Assembly (NCBI GenBank): GCA_028564705.1
Contig: JAPXFQ010001674.1
Location: forward strand, 1-64,000
Length of the DNA stretch: 64,000 bases
DNA from: Apricaphanius iberus
Taxonomy: Eukaryota; Chordata; Actinopteri; Cyprinodontiformes; Aphaniidae
Reading direction: 5' to 3'
The notes beneath the pieces are model-generated. The model was not told where the DNA came from. It did no database searches and worked only from the letters and a program-made list of their open reading frames with translations. A program made the translations under genes and the position numbers. Within the stretch, counting starts at the first letter, position 1; every line of letters starts with the position of its first letter. Shown here piece after piece: positions 30,493 to 54,796 of this stretch.

Positions 30493-31701
30493 ATGGCTAC
30501 ACAGGTAGTAGAGGACGAAGATGATATGGAATTTGATGATTGGTCACAGGTTGATAAAGGAGGAGGGCGAGGAGGTAAAACAAGTATGAGGCAGGGAAAG
30601 GAGGTTGGAGCACCGGATAGCCGGAATATTAAAAGAAGTTTAGAGGGAAGTAGTTCAGATGAAGAAAACCGCATAGTTCGCAAGAAGGTTGAAAGGGAGG
30701 AATTTGCAATAATAATCAAATTCAGGAAGGAAGATGAACAGATTAATCTTAGCCCAATAGCATTGTCCAGAGAGCTGAAAAAGAAGATAGGAGACATAGA
30801 AATGGCTAAGGTTCTTAGAGATGGGAACTTGTTGGTAAAATGCAGGAATGAAGATCAGAGAAATAAAGCCTTGCATATGGAGAATATTTGTAAAAAAGTA
30901 GTGACGGAAAAAAGAGCTCTGGGTGGGAATAAAATGTCCCGAGGTGTGATAACCGGCATACCCATTCACGAGGATTTGGAAAAAATTTAAAGAAGTATTC
31001 AAGGAGGCAACGTGACGAGGCTGAAAAGGTAGTTAAGAACAGTGAATGGGGAGAGAGAAGAAAGTTTGTCAATCCTTCTTGAGTTCCAGGACTCGAGACT
31101 TCCAGACAGAATAAAAGTAGGCTGTATGAGTTTTCCAGTCAGGCCTTATGTTCCACCTCCACTTCGATGCTACAAATGCCAGAGGTATGGGCATATAGCC
31201 GTGGCTTGCAAAGGTAAGCAAAGGTGTGCTAAATGTGGAGAGGATCACAGATTTGAAGAGTGTGGAGTTAATGTGCAGCCCAAGTGTTGCAATTGTGGTG
31301 GCCAGCACAGTGTGACATATGGGGGATGTGAAGTCAGGAAAAGAGCTGTGGAAATTCAGCATGTGAAAACAATGAATAACATAAGTTATGCTGAAGCAGT
31401 AAAAGCAGTGCAGGGACAAAAGACAATAGAAGAAACAGCTACAATCAGCCAAACTGTAAGATCAGAAGGAGGTCAACGAGAGCAAGCTAACAAGAAAGCA
31501 GAGCTGGAAGTGGATAAGTTGATTTTGTTTGTTGCCTATGTGATCAACTGTGCAGATCAAGTCAAACACAAAACAGAGAAAATCAAGATAATTGTGAAAG
31601 GGGCTGAAAAATTCTTGGGTATGAAAGACTTATCCTGGGAAAAAATCAACAGAAGACTTGAAGAAGTCTGGAAAACAGGGGGTCAGGGGGAAAAAACTTG
31701 A
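30493..31701 (+). pseudogene. I-like LINE ORF1 (nucleic-acid-binding, CCHC knuckles)
   Basis: One frame of 403 codons interrupted by two in-frame stops (TAA and TAG near 30988 and 31030), which read as point changes in Lys/Gln-type codons. The N-terminal part is acidic then basic, followed by an RRM-like segment. The C-terminal part has zinc knuckles: CYKCQRYGHIAVAC (C-x2-C-x4-H-x4-C), CAKCGEDHRFEEC, then CCNCGGQHSVTYGGC. Such proteins coat the LINE RNA. The stop TGA overlaps the ORF2 ATG as TGATG, suggesting reinitiation. Start chosen at the ATG in GGGATGGCT. Confidence 0.85.
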
Positions 31702-34700
31702 TGCTCATTCTGCAATGGAACGCAAGGAGCGTAATTGCAAATGGTCAGGAATTTAAAGGATTTATTAAAGATCTCAGAAGGAAACCTGAAATAATATGCA
31801 TTCAAGAAACTTGGTTAAAAGCAGTATTAGATTTTGGAATTAAAGGTTATAAAAGTATACGCAGAGATAGGGAAAAGGGTAATGGAGAAGGCTGTATAAT
31901 ATTGGTAAAACAGGAAATGCAATATAGAATAATAAAAAAGGGGACAGAGTGGGAAATGATAGTGATTGAAGTATGGACAAAGGATGGTTTTATCAAAATA
32001 ATCAACTTTTACAACCCATGTAAAAAGTTATCACTGGAAGGACTTGAGGAACTGGCAATAAATTTAGATGGGAAAGTTATTTGTTGTGGAGATTTTAATG
32101 CACATAGTACATTATGGGATAGGTATAATGACGGGAATGGAGAAGTGATTGAAGAACTAATGGAGTCTAAAAACATGGTATGCCTCAATAATGGAAAGGG
32201 TACAAGAATTGATGTCAGAAATGGGAGGGAATCTGCCATGGATCTCACTTTAGTGTCAGAAACTCTGGCAGGTATTTGTACTTGGGACATTGTTAAAGAG
32301 ACAACAGTAGGAAGTGACCACTATCCAATAATAATAGAAGTAGGCTTAAGACAGGAAATGTATGACACTGAAGGAGTAGAAAGATGGGTTTTCAGGAGTG
32401 TTGACTGGGAAAAATTTAAGCAGCTTAGTGATAAGGAAATGGAAAAAGTTAATATTTGTCAAGATGTAGATGAATTAAATCATGATATTTGTGAAGCCGT
32501 TCTAGGGGCAGCAAAACAAATAATTCAAAGGAATGGAGGGAGAAATAAAAAGAAAGTTGTACCATGGTGGACAAAGGTGTGTGATAATGCAATAAAGTCT
32601 CGGAATAAAGCATTTAGACTTGTTAAAAGAAATCATAATTTCCAAAATTTTATTGAATTTAAAAGGTTGCAAGCTAATGTGAGTAAAACAATTAAAAATG
32701 CAAAGAAGGAATATTGGAGGAAATTCTGTAATTCAATAGGAAGAGAAACCAAAATAGGTAAAATATGGGGAATGATTAAAAGAATGAATGGGATTAATAG
32801 AGAATATGGATATCCAGTATTAACTGAAAATGAAAATGTTTCAGTGACAGATGGGGAAAAAGCAGAGATGTTGGTACAGAGTTTCATCAAAGTTCATAGC
32901 TCAAGTAATATTAATGAAGAGGGTCGAAGAGGAAGGGAAGCTACATTAAATGAGAATGAAGAATTGTTACTACAAGAAGAAGATGCCGATGATTTAATAA
33001 ATATTTCATTCACAAAGGCAGAACTGAATCGTGTACTTAAGAAAACAAAGATGTCATCACCTGGAAAAGACCAGATATGTTACATTATGCTAAACCATCT
33101 CAGTGAATCATCTAAAGACATACTACTGGAGTTATATAATAAAGTTTGGGAGAAGGGGAAAGTACCACGAAAGTGGAAAGAAGCAGTGGTAATTCCGATA
33201 CAGAAGCCAGGGAAAGACTGTAAAAACCCAGGGAGTTATAGGCCTATAGCTTTAACATCTAATGTATGTAAAATAATGGAAAGAATGATAAATGAGAGAT
33301 TAACATATTACGTAGAAAACAAAGGATATGTATCAAAATATCAGAGTGGATTCAGAAGAGGTAGAAATACCATGGATCCTGCTTTATGTTTAGAGCATGA
33401 AATAAGAAAAGCACAAATAAATAGGGAAAGTGTAGTAGCCATATTTTTTGATTTGGAGAAGGCTTATGATATGATGTGGAAAGAGGGGTTATTAATTAAG
33501 CTACATAAAATAGGAATTAAAGGACCAATGTATAGATGGATAAAGGATTTTTTGTTGGAAAGATCTATACAAGTTAAAATAGGAAAGTGTTATTCAGATA
33601 AAACAGTTATTGAAAATGGAACACCTCAAGGGAGTATAGTGAGTCCTTTGTTATTTTCTATTATGATAAATTATGTTTTTATGGGTTTAGAAAATGGGAT
33701 GGGATTTTCTCTTTTTGCGAATGATGGGGCAATTTGGAAGAGGGGTAGGAATTTGAAATTTATAATGGGAAAAATACAAGAGGCTATCACTAAAATAGAG
33801 GAATGGTCATTCAAGTGGGGGTTTAAATTTTCTGTTGACAAAACAAAGACAATGATCTTTACAAAGAAAAGAGTTGTCGGTAATTTAAAACTTAAATTGT
33901 ATAATCAAGAATTGGAGAGAGTAAAGGAATTAAAATTTTTAGGTTTGTGGTTTGATGAGAGAATGACATGGAAAGTACATGTTCAGAAAATAAATGACAA
34001 GTGTAAAAAAGTTTTAAATGTAATGAGATGTTTGGTAGGAAATGAATGGGGAGCTGATAGAACATCAATGAAAACCATTTACATAGGATTAATTAGATCA
34101 GTATTGGATTATGGATGTATAGCGTTTGGATCTGCAGCAAAAACATCTTTGAGAAGGCTAGACAATATCCAATATCAGGCTTTGAGATTGTGTTCAGGTG
34201 CTATCAGAACAACCCCAACAGCAGCACTACAAGTGGAAATGGGAGAAATGCCACTGGAGTTGAGGAGAACACAGCTGTCATTAAATTACTGGGTCAATTT
34301 AAAAGGTCATAATGAAGATCATCCAACACAAGAAATACTGAAACAATGCTGGGAAAAGGAGAAAAAAGAAACAGAGTTTTGGATGGATCATTGAGCAGAA
34401 AGCAAAAGAGCTAGAAATAAATGAAATGAATATTTGTCCAACAGTACCACTCTCAGCAGTACATCCCTGGATACTTCCTGATCCTGTGGTAGACTTGACA
34501 TTGCTAGACAAAAAGAACAGAGATAAGGAATTCATTCTGCACCAACAAGTAATACAGACACACATAGAAAATAACTATTATAGCTGTATTCAAATTTATA
34601 CAGATGCTTCAAAGAACTCAGCTAACAAAGTTGGTATTTCGTTCATAGTTCCAGAATTCAACATAAAAATATGCAAACGAATTACTGATGGATTGTCAGT

Positions 34701-38593: not shown

Positions 38594-39494
38594 TATGAAG
38601 TGAGATCGATGACATAATCTGAAACTGAAAAAACAAGTTTTGAAACCTTGAAAATCAGTATTTGAACATTTAAAACCTGAAATAAAGTTTTGAAAGTCTG
38701 AAAATAAAATTTGAATCTCTGCAATTATAATTTTGTAAATAGCATTTATGTTTTCATTAATTCAACATGCAAAGTACAGAGTTTCAGCCTCACGTTTTCA
38801 GGGATTCAAACTGCTTGTTTCACCTTTGCCGTTTTTCAAGTAAGCTTTTTCACAGTTTCAAATATGGCATTGTTTTCCCACCACGCTATTTTTGCAAAAA
38901 ACCTTTGAAAGCTTGTAATATGATATCTGAAAAAATATTCAACTTTCCAACATCTGTCTTTCGTAGATTCGTCTGGTTGCGATGACGTGATTTTTGGCAG
39001 CGTTCTCTCGGTGCTTTACGATTCGAAACTCTGAAACTCACACTCGCTGAAAAAAAAAAAAAAAAAACCTCATCGCTCCGGGGAGGGACACGTGCCCAAT
39101 CGTGTAGTCCAATCAAATGTAAGAACAAGTAAGACTGACAGTGTGATGCGCCAATGACTGACAGACTGGTGCCAAAGGAGCCTGTCTGTTGAAAGTTCGG
39201 GAATCGGGGAGAAACGGACGCCGTCGCCGACACGGACAACGACACGGTCACCGACACCATGGCTGAGAGACCGGTAAGCGATTTTGATCACCTTACAACT
39301 AACAGTAACTTACTACAAAACCGTTCTCCCACGCATTTGATAATAATTTTACCACAGTCATTTCATTAGGTAGTGCTACTTAGCTAGCTACCGAGTAAGT
39401 AGCTAAACGCACCAATGAGCCGTTATAAACAAGGCGTCTTTTACTATAGCTGACTTTTGGCTATATCATGAAACTATTGTGTGAAATAATGAAA
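38594..39494 (+). repeat. Left long terminal inverted repeat
   Basis: Pairs with 53862-54796. The outer 200 bases are AT-rich with many TTTGAAA/CTGAAA-type motifs in both orientations; the inner half is GC-richer, contains three CCAAT boxes and exon 1 of the integrase gene. Relative to the right copy, the main difference is a stretch near 39425-39445 where the right copy has about 40 extra bases, plus an A-run length difference (17 versus about 13). Confidence 0.95.
39085..39258 (+). promoter_or_regulatory. Putative promoter and 5' UTR of the integrase gene, inside the left TIR
   Basis: CCAAT motifs at about 39096, 39109 and 39151 precede a CG-rich leader (GACGCCGTCGCCGACACGGA) and a good start context (GACACCATGG). 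No TATA box is evident. The same DNA, inverted, precedes the HECT gene. Confidence 0.6.
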
Positions 39495-41305
39495 CGTGAC
39501 CCGTGACCCATTACGATTCTTCACACCCGTTTCAGATGTGGTAGCTCTAACCGAGCTGAACCGACACAAAACGTGACGTAACAGGCTGCTGTCCACGAGG
39601 TGTGTGGTGGGGGGGGGAGATGGAGGAAATAGAGAGGCAGAGAGGATTTGGTGATAATTTATGATGAACGATGCAAAATTAATATTATAAGTGGAGAAGT
39701 ACAGGGAGGTGTATGATCCCCAGCCGATGTTCTACAAGGACTGTTATGTTTTGATTAAAACATAAAAAAAATAGACGTGGGTTTCTTCATAAGCCGTTTA
39801 TTGAACTTGCTGCTTCTACTTCACATATAGTAGACCAAAACTCACGGCAGCCCCCTAGCGGTCTAGCTGTATTAATGCTTAATACTTTTAATCAACACAA
39901 GGACAACAGCTGATCAGAAATGCTTGCTGACCGTGGCGGAAAAATACGTGTCTGGTGTGAAGGGGGGGCAGATAGAACATAACAGAACACACAACAGCCT
40001 CGCTTCTTCTATATGTTTCTTGCTCTGTCTTTTGGTGTTTTCGCTGACTACCAGCCACAGAGCACACAACAGCAGCAGTAACACCTCCATTGTTGTGTTT
40101 ACTTCACTGCTGACAGTAGGCTACATACGCCGTCTAAAAACGACTTCACGGCAGTGTCGACCAACTCCCCCCAGATGACACTACCTACTGTATGGAAACA
40201 CAACCCATCCTGGTTGTCCAAAGCGTGCCGTGCTGTACCGTGCCCTATGCAGTTACAGTGGAAAAGGGGCATTAGTTATCGAGTTCGTACAAATTAATAT
40301 TGCGCTATGGACTCACATATTGTTTTGTTGTATTATAGATTACACTTTGAGAAACTTCAAGCCAAGTTGATATTATTTTGTGTGTGTTTTTGAGAATTGT
40401 TGATCAAATTTCTGATGTTTTTATCTACAGGATGGACTTCAAGATGTGCTATTTGAACGTCTACAATCAAGGCTGCCGGATGCACTATCCAGACAACCTT
40501 TGAATTTAGATTTTCTTGAGTTTGTCTGTGAAAGTGAACTAAACTTGATTGAATCTTTTGCTGATCAAGTGTTTGTGAATAATGACATTGTTCAGCAGCT
40601 AAATAATTTGTTGCATCTTGTCCAAGGTGCAATGACAGAGGGTGCAGCTGTTTCTCACATTGAGGAAGTGGTGGGTTCCAGGGGAAGACCCACACTTGTT
40701 ATTGAAAAACAGCGCCTTGAATTTCTGTTGGGATCACAGTTCTCAGTTCCATTTATTGCTGATCTTTTGGGAGTTTCGACCAGAACCATTTTTCGCAGGA
40801 TGCAAAAATATGGACTTAGTGTTACAGCAGGCTACAGTACCATGACTGATGCAGAACTGGATACCATGGTCAGAACTGTAAAGCAACAGTTTCCAAATGC
40901 AGGCTACAGAAACGTCAAAGGACAGCTCATGGCAAGGGGTAGCCGTGTACAGTGGGATAGGATCAAGGCATCCATGCATCGCGTGGATGCAGCTGGAGTC
41001 CTGACCCGCCTATTTCAACTTGGATGTGTTGCACGAAGATCTTACTCTGTCCCAGGCCCTTTGGCATTGGTGCATGTGGACACCAACCACAAACTAATCA
41101 GGCATTTTTTATACCTACTAATTTTCCTGCCTGCTTTAAAATCTTATAATTTCTTTTGTGCTTGCATCAGTGTTCACATTTGTAAAAAAACATTACTATG
41201 TTTGTAATATATTTTTGTTTTTTTGTTATACAGGTACAACCTGATTATATTCGGGGGAGTTGATGGATTTTCCAGAAAGGTAATCACATGTCCTGTTTGC
41301 TGGTT

Positions 41306-41346
<41 letters not shown>

Positions 41347-43296
41347 TACTCTAATACAGTGGTTCTCAATTGGGGGTACGTGAAGGCACTCCAGGGGGTA
41401 CGTGAAATTTTAAAAGGCATGTTTAAAAAGTAGCATCCATGCAAAAATCCTTTACAAATAATTATTTAATAAGTATAAGCTGATAAAATTTATTTTGTTT
41501 TCAGTAGGGCATCTCAATTCCATTATCCTAAACCTAAAACCTCTTTCTAGTTCTATCTTTTTATTTCCAAATAGTTCAGGAGAGAATTAATGTTTTTCAC
41601 ATTTATGGAGTTTTAAAGGACCTAACCATAATCTTATGGTTTTAAATGGTTATATGGTCACTATTTTCACTAAATAAGATTGAATCACTGCGTTTTTGTG
41701 ATGATAAATATTTGCAATAAATTCAGTTATGGATTATGTTAAATCTTCTTTTTTCAAATGTTGGAATTTTGTTCATGTTTATCAGTTCCAAAGTTTAATA
41801 AATCCGACACTGATGGCACAGTTTTCTGTTTTAGGTCTTTTTTTCCAACCAAAAATGCTTTGCGCTGGTTAGGAATACTTGGCTGAAAAATTATTTTACA
41901 GGAGGGTCATCACTGAAAAAAGGTTGAGAACCACTGCTCTAATGTGATATTAATATAAGCAGGATACATTCATTAGTTAATCCTAATGTGTCACTATCCA
42001 TTTGCACAGTGCTAAATAGTTTTTCTGTAAATTGCCAATTCTGCGTTAAGATACTATAGGTAATAACTTTCAGTTTTACATAGGTCCTGTATTTGGATGC
42101 AGCAACGAACAACCGTGCAAGTACAGCATTCTCCTTTTTCCTTGAGGCTACCCAGATCCACGGTCTGCCATCGAGGTTATTATGCATGCTGTTATTAGAC
42201 TGTTATCTGCTTTGCTTGTTTTTTTTTTAATTCATTTACATGATCTCTACATATATTACATTACACTTTTTATGTTTCCTTTGTTACAGGGTACGTGGTG
42301 ATCAAGGAGTGGAGAATGTAGACATAGCATACTTTATGTTTTGCAGACGGGGAACTGGTCGAGCAAGTTTTATATCTGGAAAAAGTGTGCACAATCAAAG
42401 GCAATGTTTGACAAATAGCTTTAGAAGTAGTAATGTCAGCTTGTATAAGGAAGTACGCTACTTATAATTATTAGCAGTAATTACACCTGATCACTTTTCT
42501 TCTTTTAACAATGAATGTTTGCATTTCATAGTTGTAACTCTCAATGGGCGTATTCTTTGCACATTTAAGCTATAATTATGATTTAATATACTTACTATTT
42601 TGCAAGTCTTTTAAACAAAAAAATAATTTTTAAACAATCAGTTAGTAAATGGTGTAAACTGCATATTGTAGACATGGTATCAATTCTGAAAACATTTCTG
42701 AATTATATTTGTTCTATTTCAGAATTGAGCGGATGTGGCGTGATGTGTGGATTGCAGTGACCTGTGTCTTCTACGAAGCACTTCACACTTTGGAGGAAAA
42801 TGGTTTCCTAGACATTTCAGACATGGTTCACCTTTTCTGTGTGCATTATGTTTTCCTTCCTCGGCTTCAGTCTGCGCTGCACGCTTTTAAAGCTGGCTGG
42901 AATAACCATCCCCTCAGTACTGAGGGAAATCACACCCCAGAACAGCTGTGGAGAATGGGCCAACGGAGCTCTTTGGTGGAAGAGGGAAATCTTGAGGTAC
43001 AGTTATGTAATGTAAGTATATACAGTTACAGTAGTTCAAATTTTATTTTTAATTATTTTCCTTCTATTTAGGGCCCACAAGATTCTGAAATGGACGGGGA
43101 GGGTGCTGAGATGACCCTTGACACCTCTGAGAGTGGAGTTCAGGTCCCGGAAATTGTAGTACCTTTGTCTGATGAAGATCTCACAGCACTTCAGTCTGCA
43201 GTTGACCCTCTGAGTGACTCAGAATCCAATGGATGTGATATATTTATACAGGTGTTAGATTTCATCAGACGAAACACTTCAACATCCATAGAATAA
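39259..43296 (+). CDS. Integrase-like DDE transposase, 7 exons, 477 aa
   Basis: Exons: 39259-39273, 40431-41101, 41234-41279, 42084-42175, 42290-42400, 42723-42996, 43072-43296; all junctions join in phase with no stop. Exon 1 encodes MAERP and lies in the TIR. Exon 2 has an N-terminal helical region, then a helix-turn-helix ([20 protein letters not shown]). The integrase core follows: first Asp in [13 protein letters not shown], then [20 protein letters not shown] and IHGLPSR; second Asp in RGDQGVENV; catalytic Glu in [12 protein letters not shown]. All three DDE residues are present. The C-terminal part has [18 protein letters not shown] and an acidic tail. Introns 2 and 5 use GC instead of GT. 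It should cut and join the element ends. The stop TAA is part of an AATAAA signal. Confidence 0.85.
41309..41344. repeat. (AT)n microsatellite in integrase intron 3
   Basis: About 17 AT units directly left of the hAT-type MITE. Confidence 0.9.
41357..41936. mobile_element. hAT-type MITE with CAGTGGTTCTCAA ends
   Basis: Starts CAGTGGTTCTCAATTGGGG and ends AAAAGGTTGAGAACCACTG, inverted repeats of 13 or more bases. Flanks CTCTAATA (41349-41356) and CTCTAATG (41937-41944) match in 7 of 8 positions, the 8-bp duplication expected for hAT. 580 bases, no coding capacity. It lies in intron 3 of the integrase gene. Confidence 0.85.
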
Positions 43297-43734
43297 AGAA
43301 CTGCTTTCTCATATCACCCTGGACTTTTTACATTGAGTCGTGTCTTGTGACTACCTGTTATATGTATTACAATTGCAAGGTGGCAGCTCTTTCTCCCTTT
43401 TCCATAGTGTATAGAACAGTGAATGCTAGTGAAGTAGTATGAATGAGAAACAGCTGGTGTCCAGCAAGTGGCCCATCTTTAACTATTTAATGTTAAAACT
43501 AAGACAATAGCAAGAGAAAAATTATTTCTTTGCATTTTTCTCTTTGAACAAGAAAAAACTATTTTTTTGACAAATGGTTGAGGTAACAGTTAATGATGAA
43601 GTAACAGTGCAGTGGTTAAAATTTTAAACTGTATTCAAATAACAAAAACTTAATTCTGGACTAAATAAAACAACCAATGATAAAACAACCAATACATCTG
43701 GACTAAATAAAACAAACAAGAATGATGAACAACA
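43297..43734. terminator. Intergenic region between convergent genes with poly(A) signals
   Basis: AATAAA at 43293-43298 overlaps the integrase stop codon. On the minus strand an ATTAAA lies near 43485, suited to the HECT transcript. The two transcripts therefore end within a few hundred bases and may overlap antisense. Confidence 0.5.
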
Positions 43735-44411
43735 TCAGACAAGGCCAAATCCAGTGTGGCATGATCCAATTGAGGCTTCTAGTGCATGTCTGAAGTCCTC
43801 ATAAGTGCTGAAATGGCCAGGGATCCGGAGGGTCTGGTAACAGGTGGAGGCTTTTGGGAGCTCCCCACGCACAACCTCCACCTTCAGATCTCCAGAGAGT
43901 ACCGCCCAGCCTGTCCAAAATGTAAGGAGGTTGCAGCGAGTCTGTGTTGGTACTGAATAAATGAAAAATCAAATTAGACAAATTGGTGCAGCCCCTGATG
44001 GAATCACCAGACATGAAGGATGTTTATTCAGTTATTTTAGACTTGTAAAAAGCTAATCACTGACATGCCACAAAACAAAAGAAATTGCTGTTGACAGGAT
44101 AATATTTACAAACGTCATAGTGGGCCAAAATACAAGGAGATGAGCCAAATTTTACCTCTGCACCTACTTTATTTTTATGCAGGGAAATGTGCATATAACG
44201 GGCAGTACAGCATAGGAATATAACATACCTGTTTCAATGAAGTACCTAAGGTACATCCCAATCTTCATCCTTGTTTCCTTCGGGAAGTCCTCATCTTCTT
44301 CATCCACTGACTCCCCGGGCCAGGTGATGTGATCAAGCATGATCTAGTGTTTGAAAATTAAAATTCATTACTTGAAATTAGATAATCTTGCACATCAGTA
44401 TCACTCAGGAG

Positions 44412-44878
44412 TAGAGGTGGGCGATATATCTCGTCATCGATAATATCGTCAAAGTAACTTTGAAGATATGCATTTTCCCATTATTGAGTATTTATACTGT
44501 CTCCTAAAGAAAAAGACTAGCGGTGCATGGCTTGTAAAAGAGAAGCCCATGCTTCCCTCAGAAGCCAATCAGTAATGATCAGTTTTTTAATCTCTTGACA
44601 GCACTAACAATAGCATACATCAATAGTTAATATATAGTCACAATAACTGAGAGTTTGTCATCACTTATGTAACATTTAGTTAATAGTTATCTATCAAATA
44701 CTTTTCAGCTTTTTCTTTACCTTTTTAAAACCCCACAATGGCTGTTTTACTGAATATTTAATGAGTTACTGAGTAATTGTATCTTTAAAAGTCACATTTT
44801 TAAAGATATCGTCACATTATCGTTATCGGGAAATAAGAAAAAATAGGGTTTTTTTTTGGCATATATCGCCCACCCCTG
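44412..44878. mobile_element. hAT-type MITE with GGTGGGCGATATAT ends
   Basis: Left end TAGAGGTGGGCGATATATC, right end GGCATATATCGCCCACCCCTG; perfect 8-bp duplication CTCAGGAG at 44404-44411 and 44879-44886. 467 bases without coding content, in an intron of the HECT gene. Confidence 0.9.
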
Positions 44879-46257
44879 CTCAGGAGGATTACAAAAAAAT
44901 ATCTATGTTTGTGATGAAAGGAAGTAAATGGCTAAATCATTAGTACAAATCTTCTTATTCATATATAATGTCTGCTTCATCACCTCAGGAATTCAGACAG
45001 GAATATATGTCTAATGAAGCAATGCCCAGGCTTTAGTACATTTCAGTTGGAAATCATACCCACACAAAGTATTACCTGGGGGTTACAGATTAAATCTTTT
45101 TCTCTTGGGAATAGAGATTCAGCCACATCCCTCCTCTCAGACAGTATTGGCCATATGCCCGTCTCTTTTATTCCCTTCCTTATCTGCTTGATCTGCACAG
45201 AAGATCTGCCAAGAATCTAAAATAAATGAGGACAATGTAGACAAGTCAAATTACAAAACAGAAATTATGATCAGAACAATAATCTATAAATTACAGGTGA
45301 AAAACATTTTGCTTCCAACAGGCTCTCCCATTACCACATGCTGCAACATATGTTGATGAAGATACATCCTATTTTGGTTGGTCAGTCGGGGCAATTCCCA
45401 CATATCGCATAGGCTATTCACTGCTGCCCTCTCTTCCTCTGACAGCTCTATGTTGCCATCCAGCTGTATAAGAGAGATACAAAATCTATTCATTATTTTG
45501 AAACACCAAAGAAAGTTCTCAAAGAGACTATACATAATACCAGCTGGATCGTGTTTCTCTGATCTATGTCTGGGCAGTCCTCCAGTGCCAAGGTTGTTGT
45601 TTCCATCTGCCCCCCTAATAGCATGTGAACTACAGCAGGGCTGATCCCTGCCAAACCTGGACCACCATGTAAGAAGGAATGCCCAAGCATCCTGCCTGCC
45701 ATCACGAAGAGGTCAGATTCAACAAGAACTTGAGAGGCACATGGGATGAGGTGATCCCCCTGTCCCTCAAACAGTTTTGTCACATCTGCATTGCCTAAAT
45801 GATAAAAAAAGGAACAAGTATTAGCTCATTGGTTTTAATCATAATGTATTTCATCAAAGACCTAAGATGATGAATTATTTGACCAAATGTCCAGTGATGA
45901 TTATAACAAAAGAAAAAGGATGCAGGCTGCCTTAATAATTCTATTCAACATGTACAAAGCAAAAAAAAAAATATCACCAAGTATTATAAAGGATATATTA
46001 ATATCATACAAACCCCAACAGAGGCTCAAACTGTCTCAGCTGGTCTATATTAGACCAAAATTGGCTAGTGTTGGTTTTGGCAATATTATAAAACTGGACA
46101 TTAATGTTAAACAGAAGTTGCAAATTCATACCAAAATTGATGTGGAATCCCGACTGCAGGGTATGCATGGCAAAGCTGATGAAGTAACGACTAACACCTT
46201 CACCAACAGCAGCATCACCTATAACACAGAAATTAATTACTGAAACAAAATTGAATG

Positions 46258-46326
46258 TATTGGCTCCAGCCCCCTGTGACTCTACATGGCAGGGTTAAAG
46301 TGGGTTTAAAAGATGGATGGAAAATG
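46258..46326 (+). repeat. SINE tail fragment with GATGGATGG end
   Basis: TGGCTCCAGCCCCCTGTGAC, ATGGCAGGGTTAAAG and AAAGATGGATGGAAAATG match the tail type of the SINE at 54989-55320. Confidence 0.5.
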
Positions 46327-46623
46327 TATGATTATTACCATGGCCAGGAACCAATCACAGATCTGTATTTTATTTCTTTTTTTTATCTTTATTGTGCTCT
46401 ATTCTTGCATTATTTCAGGGTTTATACAGGAATCCTAGAGTTGAATTTACTACCTTTTACTATCTTTTTGACTACCTCTCCATAATTTTTACTACCATCA
46501 CAACATTGAGCTGCGGCCTCTTTTGGGGTAGTGATACTGACCCATGCGTGATGATGGCTCATCCGTGACCCAAAACTGAATGTTATCCCACTTACTTCAA
46601 GGTATAAATGTGAGGCCGTCTTC

Positions 46624-46800
46624 AAAAGGGGTACTATATTGTGAGGCGTAATAATACGAGGAGCACTACGTCCACGCACTAAGGTCACAGGTCACGCTGC
46701 TTTTATTGACGGAAGTGAGCGGGAGAGAAGTCTTTTGGAGTTAGTGCGCGGACGTAGTGCTCCTCATATTATTACGCTTCACAATATAGTACCCCTTTTT
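46624..46800. repeat. Foldback hairpin element, about 60-base arms
   Basis: AAAAGGGGTACTATATTGTG, GTAATAATACGAGGAGCACT and ACGTCCACGCAC on the left are matched in reverse complement on the right (GTGCGCGGACGTAGTGCTCC, TATTATTACGCTTCACAATA, TAGTACCCCTTTT). The spacer is about 58 bases. No coding content; in a HECT gene intron. Confidence 0.85.
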
Positions 46801-47014
46801 ATCCGCTTAGAAAATCGACATATTACATTTCTGTGTTACTATACTTTGTAGTGTAACAGTTCAAGGAATTGTATTTAAATAGGGAAAACGTGGAAGAGTT
46901 TGGTAGCTTCTAACAGGAGCTGATTTGGAACTATACAGTATGTGGAAGAGGCTGCGTTTTCACTCCGTTTGCATGACAGAGCGCACGGACAAAGACCAGA
47001 CAGGTACATATCAA

Positions 47015-48498
47015 CAGTGTTGGGCAAGTTACTTCAAAACTGTAATACGTTATTTATTACTTGTTACTGTCATTTCAAAGTAATTAGTTACATTACAATA
47101 TTACTGTATTTATAATGTAATGCATTACACTACTATTACATTACTTTTAAGTTACTCTCACCAAAATAACTTCAAATATCGATTTGTGTAAATGACCCAA
47201 AGAGAGAGACAAACCCAGTGCTTTTATTTGTTTATTTTTGCTTCTTCCTGGGCTTTATTTTGGTAAAAATACAAGGTAGGAACCGCACCACTGATTATAA
47301 TGATATGCAGGTGTGATTCACCAGCAAACAACTTGGTGTGGTTTCTCAAGGAAAGCAACCAGCTAGAAGTGGGATTAAGGTATTTTTCATTTTCTGAATT
47401 TATTGTTTTTATTGTGAAACAGTTAAATGTTTTGGAAAAACCTAACCACTTAGCTGATGTAAAAGGGTAATAATTTTAATACTTTGTATTTTAATATTGT
47501 TATGTTTTATGTCTTTTAGTTCTTACGGTGTTTCGGAGTGAAAGGTGTTCAAAAAGGGAATTGTACAAAAGAAAAACAATGAACACAAATAAAAGACAAC
47601 TCAAAACATCAGTACGCTTTACCTTTACCTGGCTGGGTCTGCTACAATTTGTCTATCTAAATGTAGCTCATGGTGCTCAATTAGCTCATTACACATCCAG
47701 TAGAAGGTGATGTGGTATCTGACTGAGCTTGGATTGTAGTTAAAAAACAGTAAGATGCTGCTGCTTGTGGCGACAGGGATCTTGCTGACGAGTTTTCGGA
47801 AAGCTGGCGATTCCATCGTTGAAAGCGGCAGCATATCTTCGACAACATACTCCGCCACAAGTCTCCTCACCTCTCGGGGCTGAAGTAGTGTGTCAGATCG
47901 GGAGAAGGTTCATTTAGGCTGCTTCATCGGGTGATCGCCCTTGTCATCCTCTGCATGTCGTTTTGCTAACTTCACGTGACTGACTGTGGCACCTCAGTAA
48001 GTGTTTCATTAAATTACTGGTGCTATTTTGGGAAGTTGACAGTTCTTTGGGTGTAACACACAAAGTGCCTTGTTTTTAACAAACTTAAAGTAATGGGCAT
48101 ATGCCCATCTGGAGAATGTACTATCCACTGCAGGCTCATTCATCTCGGCTCTGTCTGACTACAGGAAGGGAAATATTTTGTGCGGACTTCCCTTTTATCC
48201 TCTGCTGATCTCGCATTTTTTTTCCTTCTTCTTCTTTTACTTCTTCTTCTTCGGGGTTTATGGGCAGCCGGCATCCAATCCGCGTTTTTTTGTTTTTTGT
48301 TAATTTGTATGAAGAAAAGGAAAACCTACCACTTTATTCCGGGTTAACGATGGATTGTAACGCGCATTACTGACATTTGCACCGAGTAAAATATTACATT
48401 CCCACTCCCCTGTAATGCCTTACATTACTGCGTTACAGCAAAAAGTAATGCTAATTACAGTAATTTATTACTTTTGTAACGCGTTACTCCCAACACTG
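47015..48498 (-). mobile_element. hAT transposon copy, internally deleted
   Basis: Starts CAGTGTTGGGCAAGTTACTT and ends AACGCGTTACTCCCAACACTG; both sides carry the perfect 8-bp duplication CATATCAA (47007-47014 and 48499-48506). Subterminal regions on both sides are full of GTAATGCATTAC/AGTAATTTATTAC-type motifs. At 1484 bases it is far shorter than an autonomous hAT and keeps only a transposase scrap. It lies in a HECT gene intron. Confidence 0.9.
47625..47870 (-). pseudogene. hAT transposase fragment
   Basis: The frame contains VVEDMLPLSTMESPAFRKLV followed by SKIPVA, the conserved N-terminal block after the BED finger in hAT (ZBED/Charlie-like) transposases. Flanking parts including the catalytic core are gone. 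Confidence 0.75.
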
Positions 48499-50180
48499 CA
48501 TATCAACTAGTCTAAGGTAAGGTAAGAAAAAAGGTCGCTATGTAAAGACGGTGGCCTATTCCTTTAACATTCAATGGTCACCAGGAAGGAAAATAAATGC
48601 ATTCATGGATACGTTTTGCAAACATTTTGGAAAGAGCTTGAACATCCACAAAATGTAAGACTTCAAAAAAAAGCGATTAAGACTTTGTAATACTTTTTAA
48701 GTGCCATAATTTTCTCATAACTGATTTATCAACTTTTAATACTTTTTAAAACCCTGCGGACAACTTGATGTAACCCGCACTTCCCGTATCTGTGCTGTCT
48801 GCATTTTCTGTATTTTAACAGTCAATGTATGTCCCTCCGTATTTTTTTAACCTTTAAAAGTTTAATCACTTATTGACACGTGGTAAGGTGTTATTACCAT
48901 AGACTGTTCATTGATATATTACAAGTTATCTGTGAATCCACCTTTAGTCACGCTGTCGCCAGCATGCCGTTGACCCCTTTCCTGTCACGCAACTTTCATA
49001 TAAAGGCCACTAGAGACCAAGAAACTTGAACTTGAGAGGATGTGCCATGAAAAAACCCTATCAAGCTTACAGAAAGCATGATATTAATATTTTATTGTCT
49101 TTACTACTCAGGGAAGTGATGAAATATTGGTCTCACACAGACTGTGAGGTCGAACGAAACAAAAACCCTCCAAAAGAATTTTCTTTTTTCTATTACTTTT
49201 CGAAAATTGTAGGTACCTTCAAGCACACAGTAGAGAGGGGAAGCCCATTTAGCCCTCTTGGTCTTGTAAAAGGTGATGACAGCCCTTTCTCTGTCCTCAA
49301 CATCTGAGCGTAGATCCATTGTAAGGCGAAGAGGTATCTCCACCTGTTACTCCCTCAAGAGTCTTTCTCTGAAGATCTTAGCTGCACTTGAAGCATTTAT
49401 AATTTGCTTCCATTCTATGAGGGACACACAATAAACAAGTGTTAATGTACACATTCATGCAACAGATAAGTTTTACAATGTAATTGCAATGGCAACAAAA
49501 ATGTTGAAATCTTGACGAATACCGGGGACATAGTCAACACTGGATGATGGTCCAGATGTGTCATTGACTGCAACTGACGCAGTGGTTCTTCCCGTTTGAC
49601 CAGAATCACTGCGTGCTGATCTTGAAGTCCCCTCTCCAGCATCATTTTGAGGATATGGCAACACATTTTCTGAAAAACTAAAAAAAAAAAGCAAATATTT
49701 GTACCATGGAATATTTGACAATAAATAGCCTACATCTATCACTCTTACGAAATTTTATAAAATAGTACCCGTCTCCACAACTGCTGGCGTGAAATTCAAT
49801 TTCTTCTTGTGCGATTTGCTCGTCACATATTGGGCAAGCCATCTGAGTGTGGAAAACGAAGACAAATTGTTATAGTATTTTACAAGCTAATGTAAAACAA
49901 ATTTTTTAATGAAGATGATTATGTTACTCAACTGTGGAGCTGCCTTCTCTTTGTTGAGGACTTAGCATTTCAACCTCATAAGAGCTCTGTGAATTTACAA
50001 TGAAAAATAACTGAAGAAAAGAAACCTTTAGCTGACAAAAATAGTTGTAGTTTTACTTACATCATCATTGCAGGACTTGATGTGCAGAGCCAGGAACTGT
50101 AAAGGCATAACAATCCCACACATCTTGCACGTGGCCTTTGGCATTTTGGTAAATTCCGGAGCATCATGGGGAAGTGGACT

Positions 50181-52345
50181 TGATTGATTGATTGATTGAA
50201 AAAGTTTATTTGAACATAAAGACAACTTAATAAGTGACAAACAACAAAATAATCGATACATACAAAAAAAATGAAAAGATGTCTTTGTTCAAAAGGGAGT
50301 GGGAAGAAGCAGGCGCTTATTCAATCCCACCCCCTTGCCCCACACCACCAACTACCTTGTATATATATAAAATACAACAAAATTTATGGATTAATAACAA
50401 ATAGTAGTAATTAGTATAACAATAATAGTTACATCAGTTATAATAATAATAGAGACAGTTCTAGACTATCAATTTAATAAAAATGTATTTCATATTAATA
50501 TTAAAAATCATCATTACCATAACATTTTTTAAATAACAACTAATCATGATCACTACCATTACCGCAATAACTATCATCAGTATAATATCAATAATGACAA
50601 ACAATAAATAGTAAAAATCACAGTCCCTCATTTTTATACCTTTCAAAGACCGTATTCTTATATAAAGATTTAAAGGAGTGTATATGAGGACATTGCCTGT
50701 GTTCGTCTTCCAGCCTGTTCCACAGTTTTACCCCACATACAGACACACAAAAACTCTTTCTGGTTGTTCTGACTAAATGCATTTTAAATTTTGTATCCCC
50801 CCGTAAGTTATAACCCCCGTCTCTCTGACTGAAAAGATTTTGGATGTTGAGTGGTGCTAAATGTTTGCTAACTTTAAACATGATCTGTGCTGTGTGATAA
50901 TGAACCAGGTCCTGAAGTTTAAGTAACTTTGATTGTAGAAACAGAGAATGAGTATGATCTAGATACCCAGCTTTGTGTATGACACGGACTGCCCTTTTCT
51001 GTAATACTGACAGTGAGTATAGTGAATTTTTATAATTGTTTCCCCAGATCTCTATACAATAGATGAAGTATGGAAGAACTAATGAGCAATACAGAATATG
51101 AAGTGAATTATAATCTAAAAATTGCTTTATTTTATTTATGATTCCAATGTTCTTTGCTACTTTAATTTGTATGTGTCTTATGTGGGGCTTCCAACTGAGT
51201 TTATTGTCTATTATCACACCCAACATCTTCATTTCCTTTACATTTTCAATTATTATATTATCAATTTTTATATATTCATTATCCTTATTACTGTATTTTG
51301 CAAATGCTATAACCTTAGTTTTCTCTATATTCAATGACAATTTATTACTGTCCATCCATTTTTTAACTTTATTTAATTCATTATTTATAGTATCAATTAC
51401 ACTACTGTAGTCATTTCCAGAATAAATTATAGTAGTATCATCAGCAAATAATATTAATTTTAGCAGTTTAGACACTTGAAATATATCATTTATATATATG
51501 TTAAATAATTTAGGACCCAAAATCGACCCCTGGGGGACCCCACAAGCGATCTCCATACACTCAGACATGTATTCACCCATTTTCACAAACTATTTTCTCC
51601 CAGATAGATAACTTGTAATCCAGTCCAGTGCCACACCCCTAACACCATACAGCTGAAGTTTATTGATTAGTATTGAATGGTTTATTGTATCAAATGCTTT
51701 TTTTAAATCTAAAAATACACCAATTGCATATTTGCCTTGATCTAATGCATTTATTATTTCTTCCTTTGCTTCTACTATTGCGAGAGAAGTTGTACTCTTT
51801 GCTCTGAATCCGTAATGACTTTGGTTAAGTATTTCATGTTTATTTAAGAAGTTTTCCAATCTATTGTTAAAAAGTTTTTCCAGGATTTTTTAAAACTGTG
51901 GTAGGAGTGACACTGGTCTGTAGTTTGTGTATAAGTGTTTGTTCCCTTGCTTGAATAATGGAATGACTTTTGCTGTTTTCATATTTTGTGGAAATGAACC
52001 GGTTTGGAATGATAGATTGCAAATATATGTTAATGGTTTTAAAATGCTGTCGATAACTCTTTTAACTAATGACATATCAATATCTTCACAGTCCGTAGAG
52101 AATTTGTTATTAAAATTTTTTACAATTGTTTTTACCTCCAACTCATCTACTGCTGAGAGAAAGACTGAGTGAGAGTTATTCTTAATCAGCGTTCCAAACA
52201 TGGTGTCTCTTCCTTGGTCTGAAATCCTTGCTGCCAACTCTGGTCCCACTTTCACAAAAAAATAATTCATTCTATTTGCTATGTTTTTCATATCATAATT
52301 ATTATCATGGTCTTCAATAAAATATTCTGGATATATCATTTTCTT
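50181..52345 (-). mobile_element. CR1/Rex1-like LINE inserted in a HECT exon
   Basis: Minus strand, 5'-truncated near 52345, with its 3' end at 50181 marked by TGATTGATTGATTGATTGAA (an ATCA-type tail on the LINE strand). Outside it, HECT exon 5 coding sequence resumes on both sides. No obvious target duplication. The 3' UTR (50181-50617) is AT-rich. Confidence 0.85.
50618..52339 (-). pseudogene. CR1/Rex1-like LINE reverse transcriptase
   Basis: A single frame of 574 codons with only two stops (TAA after SLLPQF, TAG after LSGRK). RT motifs are intact: FKQGNKHLYTNYRPVSLLP, motif A GVFLDLKKAFDTINHSIL, motif B CGVPQGSILGPKLFNIYIND and motif C LILFADDTTII. The C-terminal part has LWGVIIDNKLSWK-like wording (MLGVIIDNKLSWKPHI) and ends near VCGVKLWNRLEDEH. 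The endonuclease is lost by 5' truncation. The near-intact frame implies a rather recent insertion. Family placement between Rex1 and other CR1-group LINEs is by wording only. Confidence 0.85.
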
Positions 52346-53861
52346 ATTTCCACCTTTGCATCCAGCTCCTCTTGGAGTGGGACAATGTAAAGGATGTGTT
52401 TCCCATTATTTGTCACATTTTTGAGGAGTTGTGCAGTATAACCCTCTGACTCTGTGGCAACCACATTCAGTTTCCGGTGTCCTTGACCACCTAAGTAAAA
52501 ATAAATACATTACACAATAATTCTATGTAAAATTTTGTATTTGCAGCTGTTTTGCTTATATGTTGTTTTCTTGTAGCTGTGATTTGTGGTGTCTTAAGTA
52601 CACCACCAGTTATGCAACAAAGGTGAATTAACATTCACATTATAATAGCTGAACAAAAACTTAGAAAAAAAACTTAGTCGCATATTTACTGTACCTGATG
52701 CTTTGTAACAAAGCCACCCTCCAGACAACTGTTTCAGTTTGGGATAATGATCTTCAAGTACACTGACAATCTAAAAATTAAAGATTTCCATGAAAAACAG
52801 TATGATGTATAGTTTAGATAAATGATATATAGTTTAGATAAAATGCATACATAAGCCGGGCATGCACTCACACACCTTGAAGGTCAAAGGTTGCATCAAT
52901 CCATAAAAAAAGCAAACAAAACTTTAGGAAAAGCTAATCTTAACTGACCAAACCTTTTATACATAAAATTATACCCGATTTAAAAAAGTAAGCTGCTATG
53001 ATACACAGGTAATTTATACAATTATGTGAAATTACCTCATCGTGACAAGAATTGTCAGCCACTATCACAGTTCTTTTCCCCAAGCCTGCCTCAAGGAGTC
53101 TGATATATTCAGATGCCTTTGGAGTGTGATCAGTTGGAGAAGCGATAAGAAAAAACTGCAGCGTAACCGATTTTACAGGCAGTGCTGGGGACATTCTGGA
53201 TAAGGCAAGAGGGCGTCTCTTGGTGCGGATCACTTCACGGCGAAAATAACCTGGAAATGACCTGCATCACAGGAAGACATACACTGAACAATAAATCTTG
53301 AAAATATTTGTTTTACACCACACTGACATCTTAACTCTGTTCACCCCCCTTTACAGGATCTATAAGTACTGGAAAACAAGTTTCATGTACTTAAATTATA
53401 AAAAAATAAAACAGCTGTCCAGACAGGCAACAACATTAGCTTACTCTTAAATTGACACCTGCTGATGTTGTGCATATCACCTTTAGTAACACAGAGAACA
53501 CTGGAATAGTATCTAATATGCAATTAAAATCTTCAAATCTTCTGGTGTGGTTGTACTGTATTACTCTATCAACGAAAAAGTATGAAATTGTATCCCTACC
53601 GTCGCATTTCATTTGCAACAGATTGGGTTGTCACAGCAGGAGTTGAGGAGGCCAACCTTGCAAGGACTTGGTCTGTCCCTCCCTGGCTACTTTCAAGTGG
53701 CTGTCCAGATGGCTGGTGCCTTGAAATGAGGCTGAGTAGTGATTGTGCGGCATCTGCAATAGCAGCATAGTTGTCCTACAAGAAACATAAGCAGAAAAGT
53801 GTTATCAAGTGATTTTTCGAATAGAGAAACCTCCGACCGAGTGGCCAGATCAAATTAAAAT

Positions 53862-54796
53862 TTTCATTATTTCACACAATAGTTTCATGATATAGCCAAA
53901 AGTCAGCTATAGTAAAAGAGCAAGTGTAAATTTACAGACTACATTCAGAATTAAAAATTCAGCCGTGGATAACGGCTCATTGGTGCGTTTAGCTACTTAC
54001 TCGGTAGCTAGCTAAGTAGCACTACCTAATGAAATGACTGTGGTAAAATTATTATCAAATGCGTGGGAGGACGGTTTTGTAGTAAGTTACTGTTAGTTGT
54101 AAGGTGATCAAAATCGCTTACCGGTCTCTCAGCCATGGTGTCGGTGACCGTGTCGTTGTCCGTGTCGGCGACGGCGTCCGTCTCTCCCCGATTCCCGAAC
54201 TTTCAACAGACAGGCTCCTTTGGCACCAGTCTGTCAGTCATTGGCGCATCACACTGTCAGTCCTACTTGTTCTTACATGTGATTGGACTACACGATTGGG
54301 CACGTGTCCCTCCCCGGAGCGATGAGGTTTTTTTTTTTTTCAGCGAGTGTGAGTTTCAGAGTTTCGAATCGTAAAGCACCGAGAGAACGCTGCCAAAAAT
54401 CACGTCATCGCAACCAGACGAATCTACGAAAGGCAGATGTTGGAAAGTTGAATATTTTTTCAGATCTCATATTACAAGCTTTCAAAGGTTTTTTGCAAAT
54501 ATAGCGTGGTGGGAAAACAATGCCATATTTGAAACTGTGAAAAAGCTTACTTGAAAAACGGCAAAGGTGAAACAAGCAGTTTGAATCCCTGAAAACGTGA
54601 GGCTGAAACTCTGTACTTTGCATGTTGAATTAATGAAAACATAAATGCTATTTACAAAATTATAATTGCAGAGATTCAAATTTTATTTTCAGACTTTCAA
54701 AACTTTATTTCAGGTTTTAAATGTTCAAATACTGATTTTCAAGGTTTCAAAACTTGTTTTTTCAGTTTCAGATTATGTCATCGATCTCACTTCATA
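53862..54796 (-). repeat. Right long terminal inverted repeat
   Basis: Inverted partner of 38594-39494. Contains exon 1 of the HECT gene at 54136-54122 and the mirrored promoter-like region. Has about 40 bases not in the left copy near 53925-53965. Confidence 0.95.
54137..54310 (-). promoter_or_regulatory. Putative promoter and 5' UTR of the HECT gene, inside the right TIR
   Basis: Mirror of the left TIR: CG-rich leader, CCAAT boxes (seen as ATTGG on the plus strand near 54240, 54282 and 54295), start context GACACCATGG. The sequence is nearly identical to the integrase promoter. Confidence 0.6.

Follow-up and report, generated by a model that had tools for sequence, protein, structure and literature searches.

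A probable IS3EU-type DNA transposon of Apricaphanius iberus that pairs a DDE transposase with a HECT ubiquitin ligase

Described systems and the element in the window

To our knowledge, eukaryotic DNA transposons have few accessory genes, and these are seldom understood. This report concerns an element in a 64,000-nucleotide stretch of the fish Apricaphanius iberus (assembly GCA_028564705.1, contig JAPXFQ010001674.1, positions 1 to 64,000; hereafter the window). It carries a DDE transposase gene and a gene for a HECT-type E3 ubiquitin ligase. The closest described systems belong to the IS3EU superfamily, and the papers on it are cited here from the parts of their text available. IS3EU elements have TA..TA ends and usually 6-bp target duplications; GingerRoot elements have both features too, and a published tree joins IS3EU and GingerRoot in one group (PMC10045372). 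In the fungal IS3EU elements that carry a TET/JBP gene, it lies between oppositely oriented transposase and alpha-kinase genes (PMC12730594). A study of four teleosts counts IS3EU, with 0.21% as the first value in its row, which we take as zebrafish (PMC4746887), and IS3EU is discussed for a killifish (PMC12763893). Accessory genes of Kolobok elements are named in PMC9587614, the available text of which contains neither "HECT" nor "ubiquitin." Neither word occurs in the available parts of the two IS3EU papers (PMC10045372 and PMC12730594), and "HECT" does not occur in those of the two fish papers (PMC4746887 and PMC12763893). A search by title, start of abstract, and term counts, which covered few subscription papers and neither Repbase nor Dfam, found, among the papers listed, none combining IS3EU with HECT.

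We consider it very probable that the element is a copy of a recently mobile DNA transposon family with a full-length form of about 14 kb, best fitted by IS3EU, in which the transposase and the HECT ligase form a unit. Its sequence features point to the IS3EU superfamily. Like described IS3EU elements, it has TA..TA termini, 6-bp duplications at its copies, and a DDE transposase with similarity to IS3 and IS481 (PMC10045372). It differs from them in its second gene, a HECT E3, and in terminal inverted repeats (TIRs) of 0.7 to 0.9 kb that contain the first coding exons. Like fungal IS3EU elements, it opposes a transposase gene to an accessory enzyme gene and has 6-bp duplications. The fungal ends are TAYGG..CCRTA (PMC12730594), and two diverged families in this genome, B and C, start TATGG. 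The fungal accessory enzymes are a kinase and a dioxygenase, whereas that of the fish element is a ubiquitin ligase. IS3EU is an established superfamily; its HECT-bearing build appears to be a variant that the literature searched does not describe.

Near-identical inverted arms bound the element (Table 1), as the original prediction of repeats of about 0.9 kb had it. The first 833 bp of the left arm differ from the right arm by 7 substitutions and 5 gap columns. The outermost sequence is TATGAAGTGAG at one end and CTCACTTCATA at the other, and the termini read TATGAAG..CTTCATA. Between the arms lie two convergent spliced genes, the transposase on the plus strand and the HECT E3 on the minus strand. 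Orientation and splicing are as predicted; the claim of only two genes overlooked nested long interspersed nuclear element (LINE), hAT-like, and palindromic sequences. The longest stop-to-stop open reading frame in the element spans 323 amino acids and reads by eye as a reverse transcriptase; no frame is of polymerase B size. Pfam searches with 10 chosen pieces gave no polymerase B, ATPase, or capsid match, and short fragments of such genes may remain. The predicted absence of these genes agrees with both results. An Rfam scan of the window at gathering scores gave no match.

The transposase gene (39259-43296) has 7 exons and encodes 477 amino acids with no internal stops. Its triad is D222, D279, and E314, with 34 residues between the last two. 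The protein matches the PF24764 integrase core (E = 2.3e-72), and the complete DDE core that had been predicted is present. Two introns start with GC instead of GT (41102-41233 and 42401-42722). The predicted fold of one relative agrees with a transposase. IS3 and IS481 were compared with two relatives rather than with the window's own protein, and the NCBIfam matches were far below the curated cut-offs (P0003, IS3 4.3e-6 and IS481 6.1e-6; P0002, IS481 1.6e-6 and IS3 1e-5). The HHCC zinc domain of Ginger1 was sought in the N-terminal region, which gave only weak helix-turn-helix matches, under the cut-offs.

The HECT gene (54136-43735) has 15 coding exons once the LINE is set aside. Its read-through model matches PF00632 (E = 3e-9; 37.4 bits against a cut-off of 23.9). 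Exons 10 to 15 encode an STC active-site motif and a C-terminal GFGLV. The active-site Cys aligns with that of AREL1 and HUWE1 and is kept in all 31 C-terminally complete relatives (of 55). The predicted fold of a HECT relative agrees with this identity. The protein resembles known HECT E3s (AREL1, HUWE1, UBR5, and the NEDD4 family) in its HECT fold, catalytic Cys motif, and C-terminal FG tail. It differs from them in its very divergent N-lobe, its unmatched N-terminal domain, and its location in a transposon. The region from the rest of exon 5 through exon 9 encodes two CxxC-x11-HxxxC fingers. This spacing occurs at least once in 43 of the 55 relatives and twice in 31. The finger region matches UBZ4 proteins weakly (WRNIP1, E = 0.00055; RAD18, E = 0.026); the top row was a RING fragment (RNF4), and the Pfam finger match for the first row was under its cut-off. 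Both the C-lobe with its catalytic Cys and the zinc-finger-like motifs of the original prediction were located.

Sequence searches of Pfam and PDB gave no significant match for the N-terminal domain. A beta-grasp fold, considered from the by-eye order of strands and helices in the whole model, is therefore not claimed. A broken donor at HECT exon 6 (49986-49933) was also considered and rejected, since an in-frame GT lies 6 bases upstream in all three full-length copies.

The two genes of the window family share their first coding exon, MAERP, which lies inside the arms ahead of a GTAAG donor. All three full-length copies have this exon and donor in both arms. Plausible first exons, read by eye, lie in the arms of families B and C. 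Among database relatives, a Phoxinus HECT protein (P0147, MTEQGGSSQ) and a Leuciscus DDE protein (P0084, MTEQSGSSQ) share 7 of 8 residues after Met. This likeness was spotted first and then tested; it is the sole such pair and comes from two different fish species. Among 16 HECT and 116 DDE N termini, the next best pair shared 5 residues. The best of 2,000 shuffles shared 6 residues, and none had 7. For comparison, 13 of 6,670 DDE-DDE pairs share 7 or 8 N-terminal residues.

Copies, diverged families, and relatives

The genome searched comprised 1.195 Gb in 1,979 contigs. The first 107 bp of the TIR gave 40 scored matches (94 candidates), all identical. They form 14 pairs, the window's included, and 12 single ends. 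The 13 other pairs enclose copies of 852 to 1,136 bp, and 11 of these have perfect 6-bp duplications. Seven short copies compared with the window consist of inverted TIR pieces and contain neither gene. Three 1,135-bp derivatives (C1127, C985, and C372) are 100% identical at different sites with different target duplications, which points to recent movement. The TIR sequence of several of the compared short copies ends just ahead of the TIR-encoded start codon.

A search with DDE exon 2 found two near-identical loci and ten at 67 to 72% identity. The two near-identical loci are full-length copies with both genes (C112, 13,925 bp, duplication TGATTC; C1092, 14,024 bp, duplication TTCAAC). Perfect 6-bp duplications therefore flank 13 of the 15 other complete copies. 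The TATGAAG..CTTCATA termini occur in the window copy, in 13 of 13 short copies, and in both further full-length copies. The short copies were found through the TATGAAG end, and their boundary is set by the target duplications. The original prediction had proposed looking for copies with the same two-gene build and for target duplications, and both were found, the latter away from the window copy. It named two outcomes that would count against it, namely, the two genes never sharing TIRs and an inversion with no independent copies; neither occurred.

Flanks were read for six of the ten diverged DDE loci. A HECT gene lies beside the transposase in all six, convergent in five and on the same strand in one. 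These transposases are 41 to 60% identical to that of the window. Family B (C1668 and C427) comprises elements of 10.1 and 10.2 kb with TIRs of 0.8 kb. Family C (C1965, C1836, and C1927) has TIRs of 0.74 kb, which are 100% identical in C1965 and C1836. Exact 6-bp duplications flank C427 (GTAACT) and C1836 (TGTAGG). C1668, like C917, C472, and the window copy, has none, and that of C1927 is not assessable because the contig begins inside the TIR. An apparent 7-bp target duplication, CACTTAG, was seen at C1965.

The pairing was also read from the HECT side. Eight of 60 HECT matches were picked before any DDE protein list existed, and 4 kb was read at each. A convergent DDE gene was present in six. 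At C193 the HECT gene itself ran on into the stretch, and at C178 there was no DDE gene.

Genome-wide, 60 scored HECT matches (429 candidates) gave 50 loci, and 94 DDE matches (608 candidates, 88 scored) gave 79 loci; these counts hold among the matches listed, as do those that follow. A DDE locus lies within 25 kb of 21 of the 50 HECT loci, against 0.17 expected from density. All 21 linked pairs are convergent. Further convergent links outside this test were found at C1223, C1836, C1927, C1406, C1949, C952, and C10, of which the last four rest on listed coordinates. In total, 28 of the 50 HECT loci are convergent with a DDE locus, and one more (C1736) shares its strand with one. The HECT-transposase pairing is systematic. 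At loci such as C267, C927, C1323, and C1803, the DDE matches cover residues 231 to 478 in one long open frame each, and none of the HECT matches listed lies close by; these may be intronless relatives or another integrase family.

Relatives of the transposase comprised 953 proteins, of which 120 were listed and 68 of the 120 were used in a tree. The legible organism names among the 120 are ray-finned fish, apart from one merged name. HECT relatives comprised 24 and 38 proteins, 55 of them different, and 42 of the 55 were used. The DDE tree places the window with Boreogadus and Carassius (100, starred), and those two join at 80. In the tree of HECT proteins, its neighbors are Gadus, Arctogadus, and Cyprinus (100, starred), which join at 86. 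These host groups are distant, so both genes seem to have moved as a pair, possibly from host to host. Family B speaks against this, since its transposase is 79% identical to P0003 over the second exon but its HECT falls near the P0170/P0172 branch. Separately, HECT proteins of Misgurnus (P0145) and Arctogadus (P0154), whose hosts are distant, group at 93 (not starred), which may mean horizontal transfer. Pattern matches in IMG/VR viral contigs (62 HECT and 26 DDE) and in prokaryote genomes (40 DDE) included no relatives.

Mechanism and rival explanations

The transposase would bind the TIR ends and insert the element into a 6-bp staggered target. It would also mobilise the short TIR-only derivatives. 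Each TIR would act as promoter and start exon, with the genes transcribed inward from both ends. Guided by fingers that may be UBZ4-like, the ligase could ubiquitylate the transposase or strand-transfer complex so that repair finishes, or host proteins at transposition sites; this is our best guess at its role, although we hold it less likely than not. ClpX, which clears Mu, is a parallel for the ubiquitin-driven removal of a strand-transfer complex. A fuller version is more tentative and somewhat doubtful. In it, the ligase would be a core transposition gene of a fish IS3EU branch, coexpressed with the transposase from TIR promoters and start exons, and, recruited by its putative ubiquitin-binding fingers, would drive disassembly of the strand-transfer complex or reprogram repair at the insertion site. 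The element would then be a cut-and-paste transposon in which one step depends on ubiquitin supplied through its own ligase.

Several observations weigh against a mobile two-gene unit. No 6-bp duplication was found at the window copy (flanks TAAACA and GTTTGG), the flanks of which may be rearranged. A LINE insertion disrupts its HECT gene, exon 9 of which also has one in-frame stop. C112 has open DDE and HECT frames, but its final HECT residues are replaced. In C1092, the HECT gene has a stop and an altered donor, and the transposase has another residue in place of its catalytic Glu. Each of the three full-length copies thus has at least one gene that is not intact. Silent/changing differences among the three copies (HECT, 3/6, 3/9, and 6/9; DDE, 3/1, 2/5, and 5/6) show no clear constraint and are uninformative. 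C1736 is the sole locus seen with both genes on one strand, and it could be a rearranged or composite element. Among the matches listed, the density test leaves 29 of 50 HECT and 58 of 79 DDE loci unlinked. Eight of these 29 are linked by other evidence and 21 stay unlinked; DDE relatives need not all carry HECT. The 3.2-kb stretches of C1927, C1406, and C1949 differ at 0 to 1 positions, and those of C952 and C10 are identical. Identical spacing also recurs in other linked groups. Some loci are thus perhaps assembly duplicates rather than independent events. Identical or nearly identical family C stretches (L016, L017, L019, L020, and L021) include pairs at the same coordinates of different contigs. 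The trees disagree at depth, where the family B HECT falls nearest the very long P0170/P0172 branch, which likely reflects exchange or fast change of HECT.

Another reading, which we judge unlikely, makes the HECT gene a passenger with no role in transposition. Differences not biased to silent changes would suit a passenger, as would the damage to HECT in the window copy and in C1092, both of which keep an open DDE frame. The C1092 transposase, however, itself lacks one catalytic residue. A passenger should decay faster, yet the active-site Cys is kept in every complete relative, and HECT stays linked in families with such diverged transposases. A role against host defence is a further possibility, which we also hold less likely than not. 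The ligase would mark a silencing, restriction, or checkpoint factor for degradation, and the element would escape host control. This is likened to the proposal for TET/JBP genes in fungal transposons. The recurrence of IS3EU accessory enzymes (alpha-kinase and TET/JBP in fungi; PMC12730594) and the retention of HECT in diverged families are consistent with it. The role is putative, and UBZ4-like fingers, themselves weak matches, would suit DNA-damage sites equally.

Other rivals concern what the element is. A placement with Ginger, GingerRoot, or Polinton instead of IS3EU is improbable. An integrase-type DDE is common to all of them, and Polinton/Maverick elements share the 6-bp duplications as well (PMC10045372). 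TA..TA ends with 6-bp duplications are marks of IS3EU, yet GingerRoot has both and falls into one group with it. The element is a two-gene unit lacking a polymerase-B-sized frame, which with its IS3EU-type ends upholds the predicted separation from Polintons. Polinton/Maverick elements also have long TIRs. Two unrelated host genes enclosed by a segmental inversion, or by an artefact of assembly, would fit the missing duplication at the window copy. This reading is scarcely credible given the identical TIR ends on many contigs, the duplications elsewhere, and two more full-length copies, and a segmental inversion was rejected on these independent copies. The copies, the other families, and the predicted folds of relatives support the original reading, a transposon with both an integrase-like transposase and a HECT gene. 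Its further idea, that the element may manipulate host ubiquitin pathways or regulate its own transposase, is a hypothesis.

An IS3EU-type transposon with this gene pair suggests that some database entries from fish, a set of uncharacterised HECT and "integrase core" proteins, come from transposon genes. A catalytically plausible E3 paired with a transposase across diverged families, its first exon lying in the TIR, raises the question of whether a transposon uses ubiquitin to finish transposition or to disarm its host.

Features of the window copy

Table 1. Features of the element, in window coordinates
Feature	Position	Strand	Remarks
Left TIR arm	38594..39494	+	Starts TATGAAGTGAGATC; contains first coding exon of transposase; putative promoter
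DDE exon 1 (MAERP)	39259..39273	+	Within left TIR; then GTAAGC
DDE exons 2-7	40431-41101, 41234-41279, 42084-42175, 42290-42400, 42723-42996, 43072-43296	+	PF24764 core
HECT exons 13-15	45216-45076, 44343-44229, 43952-43735	-	Part of exons 10-15 (N-lobe and C-lobe)
HECT exons 10-12	46218-46132, 45794-45541, 45463-45335	-	Part of exons 10-15 (N-lobe and C-lobe)
Small palindromic element	46624..46799		Same HECT intron as hAT-like element
Nested hAT-like element	47015..48498		HECT intron; 8-bp flanking repeat CATATCAA, by eye
HECT rest of exon 5, exons 6-9	49217..50182	-	Exons 6-9: 49986-49933, 49842-49769, 49677-49523, 49414-49217
Nested LINE	~50183..52355	-	Apparently 5'-truncated; reverse-transcriptase frames, TCAA-repeat tail; sits in HECT exon 5
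HECT exons 2-4 and first part of exon 5	53775-53600, 53261-53036, 52770-52695, 52490-~52356	-	Conserved N-terminal domain
Right TIR arm	53862..54796	-	Terminates in GATCTCACTTCATA; contains first coding exon of HECT
HECT exon 1 (MAERP)	54122..54136	-	Within right TIR; then GTAAGC

The nested LINE is private to the window copy, and both other full-length copies are continuous across its insertion point. The ends of the hAT-like and palindromic elements were found in all three full-length copies, so both insertions are older. Outside the element, a 910-amino-acid open frame at 31662-34391 of the window appears by eye to be the endonuclease/reverse transcriptase of another LINE.

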